DNA from: Nitrosomonas cryotolerans ATCC 49181 | GTDB taxonomy: Bacteria > Pseudomonadota > Gammaproteobacteria > Burkholderiales > Nitrosomonadaceae | Assembly: GCF_900143275.1 (NCBI RefSeq) | Contig: NZ_FSRO01000001.1 | Location: 930,001 to 994,000, forward strand | Direction: 5' to 3' | Length of the DNA: 64,000 bases | Part shown: piece after piece, positions 51,705-56,803 of the stretch | Layout: every line of letters starts with the position of its first letter | How positions within the stretch are numbered: the first letter of the stretch is position 1 | The notes under the pieces: generated by a model | Told to the model about the DNA's origin: nothing | Seen by the model: the letters and a program-made list of their open reading frames with translations, nothing else | The model's database searches: none | Made by a program: the position numbers and the translations under genes

Positions 51705-52219
51705 TTTCAATTTCTCCAAATAAACTATTATAGTTAAGCTGCGGTTATGCTAATTCCATTTAATCGAATAGGCTACCGTACTACCGATCAATTCTAAAGG
51801 AGTATGTATAAAATGACGGTATGAGTCACGTAACCATGAGATATCTCGCTCAAATTACGACGGTAAGATAAAAAATGAAGAATCCTTTATTCCATTAAAT
51901 AGGATTACTTTCCTTAATTTTCTCTGGAAGCGCGCTGTTCTTTTAGCACCCTGCTCTTTTTGTTACGCTGCCGGGATAATATCAAAAATACAGGTTCCAT
52001 TTACCCCTGAGAGCGACTATATTGCCTCAGGATCGGTTGCCCACGCTGTTATGCAAGGGAAGTTCGTGAACTCATTGGACTAATATATAACAATGAGATC
52101 AATTGGTTGTTATATAACACGTTTGTTTTTTAGAGTCAGATTGAATGCCTGTTATCTTTCCCCATCTGTTGATTATGATGAGATTTTAAGATTTTCGTTT
52201 CAAGTAGCGACCGGTTGAA
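51705..52219. other. Intergenic stretch between argA and yggX with a palindrome
   Basis: About 515 bases without a supported gene. A palindrome TATATAACAA (52084-52093) and TTGTTATATA (52107-52116) could be an operator or terminator. An AAAGGAG followed by a six-codon frame near 51798-51824 may be the remnant of a decayed gene. Nothing else stands out. Confidence 0.45.
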
Positions 52220-53557
52220 TTATAAGTGCTTCATGAATACCTTGGAGCGACGTTGGTAATTGTATAATCCCTGTTTTGCTTTGGGTAAGTCTGAGAGTGC
52301 GATCTCTTTGAAGCCATGCTCAATAAACCAATGTGTTGTGCGCGTCGTGAGAGCAAATAATTTTTTGCTTCCTTGAGCGATTGTTTGGGCTTCAGCATAT
52401 TTGAGTAGTGTATTGCCGCGTTCCGAATTACGGTAATCAGGATGCACCGCAAGACACGCAAGTTCACAGGCGTTCTCATCTGGAAAGGGATACAATGCAG
52501 CACAACCGATAATCATACCGTCATGCTCGTATACAATAAAGCGGTTGATTTCAATTTCGAGTAGCTCACGATTGCGTCTTACCAGCACTCCCTCAGCCTC
52601 TAGTGGTTCAATTAATTGTAGAATACCGCCCACATCTTCTATTTTTGCATTGCGTAAGGATTGCAGGGATTCTCGCGATATCATGGTGCCGATACCGCTG
52701 TGAGTGAACAGCTCTTGTAATATCGCACCATCGATATGGCGACTGATCAGGTGGACGCGCGCGATACTGCTTTCACACGCCTTGATTGCGTAGGAAAGGC
52801 ATTGTTCAATTGCGAGCGGCAGTTTTATTGTATTGTTTGCATGTTTGGTGAGGAGTAACCGAGATTCAGCAACCGTTAATTCACGTAGCAGCGTCTGAGG
52901 TTTATCAGTAAATTCCTCTGAAATACCCGGCACATCCAGTAGGAAAATGAGCTTTTCTGCATTGAGTGCAATGGCCACTTCGGTTGCGACATTTTCCAGT
53001 GTTAAATTGAATATTTCTCCTGTTGGAGAATTACCTAAGGGAGAAATGAGAGCGACATCACCCTGTTCCAAGCGTGTGCGAATCATGGCTGCATTTATTT
53101 TGCGTACTTTTCCTGTATGCATTAAATCAACGCCGTTAATCACGCCAATGGGGCAAGCGGTAACAAAGTTGCCGCTGGTAACGCGAATAGCGGCATTCGC
53201 CATGGGTGAGTTGGGTAATCCCATGGATAGTAAGGCCTCTATTTCAATATGAATGCGCCCTACCGACTCTTTTACACGCTGTAATGTGGCTGGGTCAGTA
53301 ACACGCATGCCCATTACAGATTTGGTTTGCAATTTACACTCATCGAGCCGTAAATCTATTTGTGAGCGCGCGCCATGTACTAAAACCAGCCGAACACCGA
53401 GGCTGGCCAGTAAATTGATGTCATGTATAAAGTCGACGAATTTTGCATCGGTTACCATTTCACCACTGAAAGCGATGATAAAAATTTTATTGCGAAATGC
53501 GTGAGCATAAGGTGCAACCGAACGAAACCAGTTGACAAAATCAGTATTGGATTTCAT
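52220..53557 (-). CDS. argA: N-acetylglutamate synthase (amino-acid acetyltransferase)
   Basis: 445 residues. First step of arginine synthesis. The N-terminal amino-acid-kinase-like domain (FIIAFSGEM, LVLVHGARSQID, EKLIFLLDVPGI) serves for arginine feedback; the C-terminal GNAT domain (about 300-445) has CAALYPFPDENACELACLAVHPDYRNSERGNTLLKYAEA. This is the classical ArgA of beta- and gammaproteobacteria. It lies 65 bases downstream of rsmE on the same strand, so the element inserted in rsmE could weaken its expression unless it has its own promoter. Confidence 0.97.
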   Translation of the reverse strand: MKSNTDFVNWFRSVAPYAHAFRNKIFIIAFSGEMVTDAKFVDFIHDINLLASLGVRLVLVHGARSQIDLRLDECKLQTKSVMGMRVTDPATLQRVKESVGRIHIEIEALLSMGLPNSPMANAAIRVTSGNFVTACPIGVINGVDLMHTGKVRKINAAMIRTRLEQGDVALISPLGNSPTGEIFNLTLENVATEVAIALNAEKLIFLLDVPGISEEFTDKPQTLLRELTVAESRLLLTKHANNTIKLPLAIEQCLSYAIKACESSIARVHLISRHIDGAILQELFTHSGIGTMISRESLQSLRNAKIEDVGGILQLIEPLEAEGVLVRRNRELLEIEINRFIVYEHDGMIIGCAALYPFPDENACELACLAVHPDYRNSERGNTLLKYAEAQTIAQGSKKLFALTTRTTHWFIEHGFKEIALSDLPKAKQGLYNYQRRSKVFMKHL

Positions 53558-54335
53558 CTTTTAAATGGATATTAAGGATTAAATTAGTTTATTTGCTCGC
53601 TAATAAGTAGTGCAGTCGCTTGTCAATAATCACCCCATAGTGCTTGCATTGCCGCAATTGTAGCCAATGCCGCACTTTCTGTTCGGAGTATACGTTTTCC
53701 TAAGCGCAATGGAATAAAGCCCGTGTGTAAAATAGCGATTTCTTCTTCCTGTGTAAGACCCCCTTCTGGCCCGACAAGTAGCGTTAATACCGTATTAAGA
53801 GGGGGCTTCTGGAAATGGGTTAAACTCTTTTCTGCTGTGGTGGACAGCATAAATCCGAGATTCTGGGACGTCTTATTCATGTTTTTCTGATTTGACCAAT
53901 CAGATAATGACATCAAGGGAGAGATTTGTGGTACATGATTTCTGCCAGATTGCTCACAGGCAGAAATGGCAATTTTTTGCCAGTGTTGCAGGCGTTTGAT
54001 TGCACGTTCGTTGGTGAGATGCACGATGCTACGATGGGTAGTAACAGGAAAGATATGCGTGACACCGAGCTCTACTGTTTTTTGTATAATCCAGTCCATT
54101 TTCTCGTTGATACATATTGCCTGAACTAATTCAATTATCAATGGTGATTCCCGTTCAATGGCATGATACTCATTTATTAAAGCGGTAGTCTTTGATTTAC
54201 TGATGTGTGTGATCTGTGCCAGGAATTCACCTCCCTTGTTATTGAATAGTGTGATTCTGTCACCCGATCTCAGACGTAATACGCGCGTGGCATGATGCTC
54301 AATATCGGCCGGTAATTCGATAGAATGACCTACAA

Positions 54336-54449
54336 TGATGTCTTCGGTGCATTGACATCCTCCCCTTCCTAAACGAAGGGGATTCCTAGCGACTTATTAA
54401 GCCGTTAAGAGTAGGTTTGTATTGCTACTGCCTACTGGTTCCTGCTTCT
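54336..54449 (-). ncRNA. Predicted TnpB guide RNA (omega/reRNA), copy 2
   Basis: By analogy with other IS605 elements, the RNA would overlap the tnpB 3' end, include the CCCCTTC/GAAGGGG hairpin (54362-54381) and run past the element end at 54352 into rsmE. The guide would begin TGCACCGAAGACATC, which is rsmE sequence. Boundaries are inferred from the family. Confidence 0.42.
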
Positions 54450-55629
54450 TAGACGAAACTAACGTTTCAACTCCACAGGCTAACAAGCGATGTCCTCGCT
54501 CAAGTACATTCAAGGCACCTACCAAGTCGGCATTGGCTTTAAATCCACATTCTGTACATTCAAAAGCACTTTGGCTTTTGCGATTGTCACGACTAACATG
54601 TTGACATCTAGGGCAGGTTTGAGAGGTGTATTGAGGGTTTACCTTCAATACATCCCCGCCTGAACAAGCCTGTTTATACTCCAAAAACGAAACGAACATT
54701 CCCCATCCTTGGTCAAGAATGGATTTGTTTAGACCCGATTTCGCTTTGACGTTTTTACCATGCTTTTCAACACTGCCCTTGGCACTCTTAGACATGTTTC
54801 CTATCTTTAAATTCTCAACTACGACCATTGCGTGATTTTTGCTGATTTCGGTTGAGGTTTTGTGTAAGAAGTCTAAACGAGCATTGGCAATACGCTCATG
54901 CAGTCGGGTAATGATTTGTTTCTGCTTTTTCCAGTTAGCAGAGAAACGGACTTTTTTAGACAGCTTACGCTGTTCAAAAGCCAGTTTCTTTGATAACTTT
55001 CTGAAACTGTTTAAAGGTTCTACGTATGAGCCGTCTGACAAGGTTGCAAAGCGGGTAACGCCCATATCAACACCAATCATACTGGTTGAGCTATGACGCT
55101 TTAGCTCGGTCTCGTACTCAGTCTGAATCGACACGTACCAATAACCGCCTTTACGGGAAATCGTCATATTTTTAACGTCACCAATGACTTGGCGTGAATT
55201 ACGATATTTCACCCAACCGATTTTAGGCAAGAACACTTTGCTAGACTCTTGCTCCAGCTTAAATCCTTGTGGATAACGAAAGCTGTCACTCAAACCTTTT
55301 TTCTTGAATTTTGGAATCCGTTTTAAAGGCTGTTTTTTATCAAAACCGTCTTTGAACGCTTTTTCTAAGTTTTTTAAGGCTTGTTGCAACGGTTGAGAAT
55401 GAACGGTTTTTAGAAATCCATAATCTTCTGAGGATTTCCATAGCTTTAGCCAAAATGACAACTCGTTGTACCAAAGCAATGGCTGTTTCTGCTCTAATCT
55501 GAACAGATTCATTGCTAAGGCTTTATTCCAAACAAACCGATTAGCACCTGCAAACTCAACCATCTTCTGTACTTGGTCAGAATTTGGATTGAGTCGAGAT
55601 TTAAAGGCTTTGCGTATAATCTGCTTCAT
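54397..55629 (-). CDS. tnpB: TnpB RNA-guided nuclease of an IS605-type element (copy 2)
   Basis: 410 residues from the ATG at 55629, nearly identical to copy 1. The one clear substitution in the zinc ribbon is Arg341 (CPRC) where copy 1 has Gly (CPGC); both keep the four cysteines. RuvC residues Asp188, Glu272 and Asp368 are intact. Its start codon lies 30 bases from that of the divergent tnpA, with an AT-rich TATAATTATA segment that could serve as a -10 in both directions. The upstream extension to 55719 is not family sequence. Confidence 0.95.
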   Translation of the reverse strand: MKQIIRKAFKSRLNPNSDQVQKMVEFAGANRFVWNKALAMNLFRLEQKQPLLWYNELSFWLKLWKSSEDYGFLKTVHSQPLQQALKNLEKAFKDGFDKKQPLKRIPKFKKKGLSDSFRYPQGFKLEQESSKVFLPKIGWVKYRNSRQVIGDVKNMTISRKGGYWYVSIQTEYETELKRHSSTSMIGVDMGVTRFATLSDGSYVEPLNSFRKLSKKLAFEQRKLSKKVRFSANWKKQKQIITRLHERIANARLDFLHKTSTEISKNHAMVVVENLKIGNMSKSAKGSVEKHGKNVKAKSGLNKSILDQGWGMFVSFLEYKQACSGGDVLKVNPQYTSQTCPRCQHVSRDNRKSQSAFECTECGFKANADLVGALNVLERGHRLLACGVETLVSSKKQEPVGSSNTNLLLTA

Positions 55630-55659
55630 GGTTATAATTATACAAAAAGGAATTGGTCT

Positions 55660-56076
55660 ATGCAAGTTAATAACGATGTAATAACAGTAAGACATTTCGT
55701 TTTTAATCTTAATGTTCATTTGGTCTTTGTAACAAAATACCGTAGAAATGTTTTCTCCGGAAGGGTATTAATTGATTTGGAAGAAATATTTAAAAACGTG
55801 TGTTTGGATTTTGAAGCAGAATTGGTGGAATTTAACGATGAGCATGATCATATTCACCTTTTAGTTAACTATCCACCAAAAATTGCTATTTCTAACTTGG
55901 TAAATAGTTTGAAAGGCGTTTCAAGCCGACTTATTCGCAAAAAGAATTATCCCGAAATTAAAAATAAGCTTTGGGGTAATATGCTTTGGAGTCCAAGCTA
56001 TTTTGCGGGTAGTTGTGGTGGAGCACCACTCTCGATTATTAAGCAATATATTGAACAACAGCAAAGATCGCATTAA
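55660..56076 (+). CDS. tnpA: IS200/IS605 Y1 transposase TnpA (copy 2, intact)
   Basis: 138 residues from the ATG at 55660. Single-strand HUH transposase: the metal-binding HxH is at His64 and His66 (EHDHIHLLV) and the nucleophilic tyrosine at Tyr130 (SIIKQYIEQQ), the same spacing as in well-studied members. The N-terminal strand FVFNLNVHLVFVTKYRR is present, unlike in copy 1. It would excise and insert the element as a single-stranded circle by recognising the subterminal hairpins. The stop codon is 61 bases from the element's left end. Confidence 0.96.
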   Translation: MQVNNDVITVRHFVFNLNVHLVFVTKYRRNVFSGRVLIDLEEIFKNVCLDFEAELVEFNDEHDHIHLLVNYPPKIAISNLVNSLKGVSSRLIRKKNYPEIKNKLWGNMLWSPSYFAGSCGGAPLSIIKQYIEQQQRSH

Positions 56077-56248
56077 ACAGGCTTCGCCTGTGCGCTTATA
56101 TCTCCGCCCTGAAGGACGAAGTTTTACGCGCTATTTGATAAAAGCGTGGGTACATTATAAGATTAGAGGTAGGCAATTAGTGATAGCGGGTAATGTGCCC
56201 ATGATAATATAAATTTTCTTAAATACTACCAGTAAGGGGAGAGAAGAT

Positions 56249-56803
56249 ATGGCAAGTTTGGAAACACCCATTTGTGAATTTGGCTGGAAAGCGGTTGATT
56301 TTGATTTGTTAGGTGTTGATGGTCAACGTTATAACCTGGCAAAAGCTAAGGGGGAAAATGGGCTATTGATAATGTTTATTTGTAATCACTGTCCTTACGT
56401 AAAAGCGATACAAGATCGTATGATTCGAGATGTGAGGGAACTCGCTCCGCATGGAATTAATGCAATTGCTATTATGTCAAATGATCCAGCGGATTATCCG
56501 GAAGATTCTTTTGATAACATGATACAAATCGCAAAACAATTTGATTATCCGTTTCCTTACGTGTGGGATGAGACTCAGATGATCGCCAAGGCGTATGGTG
56601 CAGTATGCACACCGGATTTTTTTGGTTTGAATAGCAAGCTGGAATTGCAATATCGTGGGCGACTGGATGCCTCGCGCAAAGAAGCAGCGCCAGCAAATGT
56701 GCGACGTGATCTATTTGAAGGTATGGTGCAGGTTGCTCAAACGGGCCGGGGTCCTGAGAATCAGATTCCCAGTATTGGTTGTTCGATCAAATGGCGGACG
56801 TGA
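56249..56803 (+). CDS. Thioredoxin-like (AhpC/TSA-type redoxin) protein
   Basis: 184 residues. Thioredoxin fold without a signal peptide; the motif CNHCPYVK places cysteines at 45 and 48, followed by ISIMSNDPADYPEDS-like segments (here AIMSNDPADYPEDS) and the cis-proline region VCTPDFFGL. This subgroup of 'thioredoxin family' proteins is common in proteobacteria. The exact partner is unknown; cytoplasmic thiol chemistry or peroxide reduction is likely. It diverges from rsmE across 93 bases and overlaps the next gene by about 13 bases. Confidence 0.9.
   Translation: MASLETPICEFGWKAVDFDLLGVDGQRYNLAKAKGENGLLIMFICNHCPYVKAIQDRMIRDVRELAPHGINAIAIMSNDPADYPEDSFDNMIQIAKQFDYPFPYVWDETQMIAKAYGAVCTPDFFGLNSKLELQYRGRLDASRKEAAPANVRRDLFEGMVQVAQTGRGPENQIPSIGCSIKWRT

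Follow-up and report, generated by a model that had tools for sequence, protein, structure and literature searches.

In Nitrosomonas cryotolerans ATCC 49181, the gene rsmE is broken between codons 6 and 7 by an IS200/IS605 element of 1786 bases (54352-56137; CAAATAG...GATGTCAA). Positions refer to the window, that is, the whole stretch of 64,000 nucleotides that was analysed. Joining minus-strand positions 56155-56138 to 54351-53623 restores one frame encoding an RsmE protein of 248 residues that starts with MYPRFY/CTED (slash, insertion site), as the first-pass annotation had proposed. The features of the locus are as follows.

52220..53557, minus strand: argA-like N-acetylglutamate synthase gene (AA_kinase and GNAT domains), directly downstream of rsmE and possibly co-transcribed with it; same order at 37 of 37 Nitrosomonas loci
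53623..54351, minus strand: open, undecayed remainder of rsmE, comprising codons 7-248 plus the stop (Pfam PUA_4 and Methyltrans_RNA; NCBIfam PRK11713.1-5, 3.2e-89)
53623..54141, minus strand: longest remaining rsmE frame with a standard start, 172 amino acids from TTG, comprising the SPOUT catalytic domain without PUA (ORF list, Pfam)
54336..54351, minus strand: predicted TnpB guide, made up of the ~16 nt of rsmE that adjoin the right end, codon 7 into codon 12 (analogy with the ISDra2 reRNA, PMC8612924)
54352..56137, minus strand: 1786-bp IS200/IS605 element, whose transposed strand runs from a left end at 56137 to a right end at 54352 (at least 44 copies; (T)TTAT ahead of the left end in 39 of 39 two-ended copies)
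54352..54396, minus strand: right end with hairpin, which together with the 3' part of tnpB forms the predicted guide RNA scaffold (folds; role by analogy with ISDra2)
54397..55719, minus strand: tnpB, RNA-guided nuclease (NCBIfam guided_TnpB, 5.5e-98; ISDra2 TnpB 8h1j, 2.3e-47)
55660..56076, plus strand: tnpA, Y1/HUH transposase, 138 amino acids (Pfam Y1_Tnp, NCBIfam transpos_IS200, IS608 TnpA structures)
56092..56131, minus strand: imperfect hairpin at the left end (subterminal palindrome; DNA fold)
56138..56155, minus strand: rsmE codons 1-6 (ATG TAC CCA CGC TTT TAT), ending in the target and putative TAM (sequence, 37-locus comparison)

Codons 7-248 specify the PUA and SPOUT (Methyltrans_RNA) domains that characterize RsmE, the 16S rRNA m3U1498 methyltransferase; they score above the cut-off of the NCBIfam equivalog model for 16S rRNA (uracil1498-N3)-methyltransferase (PRK11713.1-5) and match the RsmE structure 5vm8 (1.4e-54). 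What sets this gene apart is its interruption after codon 6. Relatives were represented by 37 Nitrosomonas rsmE loci encoding 33 distinct proteins, namely 8 named among 19 loci plus the 29 best loci from a search of other genomes, with some genomes probably present in both sets. When the start codon was taken as the last in-frame Met no more than 60 bases upstream, six codons preceded the C7 position in all 37 loci, two of which (L046 and L083) read MFPRFY/CTE at the junction. RsmE is exactly 248 amino acids long at 32 of the 37 loci, and an alignment of the 33 distinct sequences shows no gap in its first 50 columns. Extra codons between PRFY and CTED, which the first-pass annotation had named as an observation that would contradict its reading, were found at none of the 37 loci. 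Its claim that no base of rsmE was lost or duplicated would follow from the frame, the length and the behaviour of IS200/IS605 elements.

The gene is widely conserved, being present in 82 of 84 other genomes of the genus and in all 70 high-quality Nitrosomonas genomes searched, that of N. cryotolerans included, where a whole-genome search revealed no second rsmE elsewhere. One relative (G027) has two rsmE-like matches, the second of which (G027:C96:813-1496) shows 42% identity. The interrupted remainder contains no internal stop and departs from the Nitrosomonas alignment at one of 63 otherwise invariant columns (range in the other sequences, 0-3); no relaxed constraint was seen in this alignment.

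TnpA of the inserted element is recognized by Pfam Y1_Tnp (3.2e-44; 150.4 bits vs a cut-off of 23) and NCBIfam transpos_IS200 (2e-43; 147.6 bits vs a cut-off of 55), and it aligns with IS608 TnpA structures (~3e-25) at HxH and at KQYIE with the C-terminal tyrosine. Likewise, residues 34-420 of the TnpB query align with the ISDra2 structure 8h1j at GVDMG, VVENL, CPRC...CTEC and NAD, which we take to be the RuvC D/E/D acidic triad and the zinc ribbon; the aligned TnpA residues are presumably catalytic as well. Judged by sequence, both proteins look intact, with catalytic residues in place. Translation of tnpB probably begins at window position 55629 (ATG, element position 509), which gives a protein of 410 amino acids; the 440-residue reading is the longest ORF. 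Instead of terminal inverted repeats, the element has subterminal imperfect hairpins at both ends, as is typical for IS200/IS605, the one at the left end being weak: in DNA folding the right end (54352-54431) reaches a z-score of -2.39 (4 of 200 shuffles equally good) and the left end (56058-56137) one of -1.83 (12 of 200). As RNA, the segment that covers the right end together with the 3' end of tnpB (54336-54500) folds better than 200 of 200 shuffles (z-score -3.62).

The element is a high-copy resident of the genome, which comprises 2,928,185 bases in two contigs (99.95% complete). The first search gave 40 matches of at least 1.5 kb and three short pieces, a lower bound given that 40 of 101 candidates were scored; four further copies, 98.7-99.2% identical to the rsmE copy, were recognised among 70 TnpB-domain matches, bringing the total to at least 44. 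The bases 5' of the left end were read in 39 two-ended copies, i.e. 35 of the first set plus the four added, with the other five, in which the left or right end was not recognised, left uncounted. TTAT precedes all 39 of them, TTTAT 37 and TTTTAT 21, and insertion 3' of this fixed short motif occurs without target-site duplication, again in line with IS200/IS605. As a rule for the target, (T)TTAT is therefore a better description than the TTTTAT given previously. The right end reaches GATGTCAA in the 30 copies inspected for it. Because the 39 two-ended copies obey one target rule, the exact ends originally deduced from the rsmE frame are confirmed without using rsmE.

Several copies merit separate mention. 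A second complete one lies within the window (L023; 25392-27177, plus strand; C1:955392-957177). L128, among the four added, is split by ~1.3 kb of other DNA, in L062 (C1:1336212) the left end occurs twice, at a distance of 66 bases, and a right end is not recognised within 5 mismatches, and L063 and L064 span 1879 and 1901 bp, more than the standard 1786. The genome also harbours a second type of TnpB-bearing element (L001-L008 and others) with 397-amino-acid open frames in repeats of ~1.3 kb, L002-L008 being 99.2-99.8% identical to L001. Among 33 aligned copies of the rsmE-type element, variation is concentrated at 55638-55737 (element positions 401-500), around the 5' end of tnpA and the gap that separates it from tnpB, with 34 of 100 columns variable vs 104 of 1686 elsewhere and 11 three-state columns vs none. 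Changes in this hot spot are mainly from G/C to A/T (32 of 45). The tnpA part of it has 6 synonymous and 29 non-synonymous changes, the rest of tnpA 9 and 12, and tnpB 20 and 56; diversifying selection on TnpA was considered as a reading of these raw change counts.

The copy in rsmE is identical only to the one at C1:1606013-1607798 (L009). This is the sole identical pair among the 528 pairs formed by the 33 aligned copies, of which the next closest differs at 6 positions and the median pair at 16, and the first genome search found no other 100% match besides L009. The two copies are likely a donor-recipient pair; alternatively, their identity could reflect gene conversion. The insertion looks very recent, given that the element has an exact twin and that rsmE is undecayed. 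In a strict start-string test of the 33 copies, the 410-residue TnpB frame is open in at least 26 and the 138-residue TnpA frame in at least 20. Across the insertion site, a frame of at least 100 codons runs unbroken in 7 of 35 two-ended copies (255 codons for rsmE, 104 to 275 for the six others). Since the remaining 28 have no such long frame, rsmE is possibly one of few genes hit by the element. No comparable element was found in 84 other Nitrosomonas genomes, with only short matches of 65-86% identity in five of them, in a search that scored three candidates per genome and that distant or damaged copies could have escaped.

The insertion deprives rsmE of its start codon and of the region upstream. 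The frame continues open for 14 codons into the element (256 vs 242 codons), and neither ATG, GTG nor TTG occurs in it between the element and 54141, where the 172-residue frame begins. The PUA domain that this frame lacks is described as RNA-binding in a study of the Legionella RsmE structure (PMC5699498). A shorter RsmE could arise from a non-standard start. Because start codon and upstream region have been separated from rsmE, full-length RsmE would be lost and with it, probably, the m3U1498 modification.

The gene at 52220..53557, which we take to be argA on the basis of its domains, lies 3' of rsmE on the same strand at all 37 Nitrosomonas loci, with a redoxin gene divergently oriented upstream of rsmE. 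Its expression may be affected by the insertion. The genome also contains argJ, a bypass that may make argA dispensable. Within 52100-56400, no terminator-like site was found (3.5 expected in shuffles), and promoter-like matches number 6 vs 10.5 in shuffles. A TATAAT read just upstream of the tnpB ATG is absent from the promoter-scan list.

Orientation relative to replication bears on whether the element is apt to leave. The direction of replication was deduced from 20 sampled stretches and from dnaA, located at C1:28.6 kb. Of the 15 stretches from 0.15 to 2.05 Mb, 13 have a positive GC skew, the other two being those at 0.75 Mb (-0.030) and 1.8 Mb (-0.006). The skew is negative in the five remaining stretches and positive in all sixteen 4-kb bins of the window. 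A search of the genome with a dif consensus found no dif-like site to mark the terminus. The transposed strand falls on the presumed lagging-strand template in 38 of 44 copies with flip-fitted boundaries, in 37 with boundaries set by skew (0.15 and 2.1 Mb) and in 36 with dnaA as the left boundary plus skew (Fisher test, 2e-7 to 4e-6 over the three choices), which is the replication-dependent bias of IS200/IS605 elements. Under all three choices, the rsmE copy belongs to the minority (6-8 of 44) whose moving strand appears to be on the leading-strand template. This position is described as unfavourable for excision in a study of such elements (PMC5371812), and by analogy the rsmE copy is expected to excise less.

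We consider it highly likely that a high-copy IS200/IS605 element transposed into rsmE recently and in an ordinary way, and that the outcome is a selfish, in principle reversible knock-out of the gene and not a regulatory switch. According to this model, a single-stranded circle would have entered the coding strand of rsmE 3' of TTTTAT, with the identical copy at C1:1606013-1607798 as its source (or product). Codons 7-248 would thereby have been parted from the start codon and the region upstream, at the expense of full-length RsmE. TnpA could excise the element precisely, and excision, which is part of the known chemistry of IS200/IS605 elements, would restore the frame, as had been pointed out. 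The local guide would match the restored gene exactly, and TnpB would be predicted to cut this gene beside (T)TTAT. Such cutting of the re-closed gene would favour retention of the copy.

The first-pass annotation went further and concluded that the locus is a reversible on/off state. In this scenario, precise excision and re-insertion would switch a 16S rRNA modification heritably and produce mixed populations. It draws on the exact junction that excision would leave in rsmE, on a TnpA that looks intact and on a precedent from ISDra2, derivatives of which were excised from tetA with restoration of the frame at ~2x10^-3 per cell in the presence of TnpA (PMC2806898). That conclusion goes further than the data. 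Since insertion requires no more than (T)TTAT and does not target rsmE in particular, a change from off to on is possible but one from on to off at the exact site should be rare; for ISDra2, overall transposition into one reporter gene is given as ~4x10^-10 (PMC2806898). Moreover, the rsmE copy is in the orientation reported as unfavourable for excision (PMC5371812), TnpB would be expected to reinstate it, and the assembly contains the occupied state only, with no empty site or re-closed rsmE junction. We thus regard a genuine switch as highly improbable. Quite improbable, too, is a locked knock-out that guards itself, in which each excision restoring rsmE would create the (T)TTAT-plus-guide target of the element's own TnpB, and rare RsmE-positive cells would reconvert or escape, so that ribosomes would be heterogeneous at a low level that depends on how TnpA and TnpB balance each other.

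A permanent knock-out on its way to gene loss, with the element staying and rsmE decaying in future, is a possible though not a favoured outcome. The severed start and upstream region point in this direction, as does the damage in other copies, where full TnpB and TnpA frames persist in the proportions given above; yet rsmE is free of decay so far, and the intact element could leave. This outcome is compatible with the recent selfish transposition preferred here and merely represents a later stage of it. Less plausible, and in our view unlikely, is that the element supplies transcription to rsmE-argA, such that the insertion is tolerated because read-through from the co-directional tnpB keeps argA on. 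The conserved position of argA, the lack of terminator-like sites and the TATAAT ahead of tnpB would suit this idea, but shuffled sequence gives more promoter-like matches than the stretch itself, the TATAAT is not on the scan's list, and argA may be dispensable in the presence of argJ. Finally, at least 44 near-identical copies make it conceivable that a repeat was misplaced into rsmE during assembly. An artefact of this kind is extremely unlikely: the assembly consists of two contigs and is 99.95% complete, the insertion obeys the target rule, and the sequences on either side of it join into an unbroken rsmE of normal length, which would hardly result from a misjoin.

The element is of a common bacterial kind, and the case is mostly an ordinary one in which excision is possible in principle. 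If RsmE is truly lost, the strain represents a naturally occurring rsmE-null among ammonia oxidisers, and the identical pair of IS605 elements with a readable guide lets nature itself test cleanly whether an insertion at a host gene is held in place by TnpB. If not, this is an everyday insertion. A literature search found no paper on this rsmE insertion, which is not proof of absence.

Two known members of the IS200/IS605 family invite comparison. With IS608 (ISHp608) of Helicobacter pylori, the element shares the Y1 transposase and a mode of insertion in which the element lands 3' of a short target that is not duplicated. In IS608, tnpA and tnpB are divergent and read toward the left and right end, respectively, which is also the arrangement found here. 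The two differ in target, TTAC for IS608 (PMC8612924) vs (T)TTAT. ISDra2 of Deinococcus radiodurans (TnpB structures 8h1j and 8bf8) resembles the present element in its TnpB and in a structured right end adjoining the target flank, and again differs in its target and TAM, TTGAT vs (T)TTAT. In work on ISDra2 (PMC8612924), the element is described as leaving as a single-stranded circle and inserting without duplication, and its TnpB as using ~16 nt of flank as guide and cutting the donor joint, in vitro as well as in E. coli, beside the target motif; it was proposed there that TnpB reinstates the copy via repair from the sister. A preprint reports gene drive by the same TnpB activity in plasmids (PMC11870625). 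For the rsmE copy, a corresponding TnpB activity is predicted from the sequence, and by analogy the ISDra2 model of retention would extend to an element that inserts at (T)TTAT.
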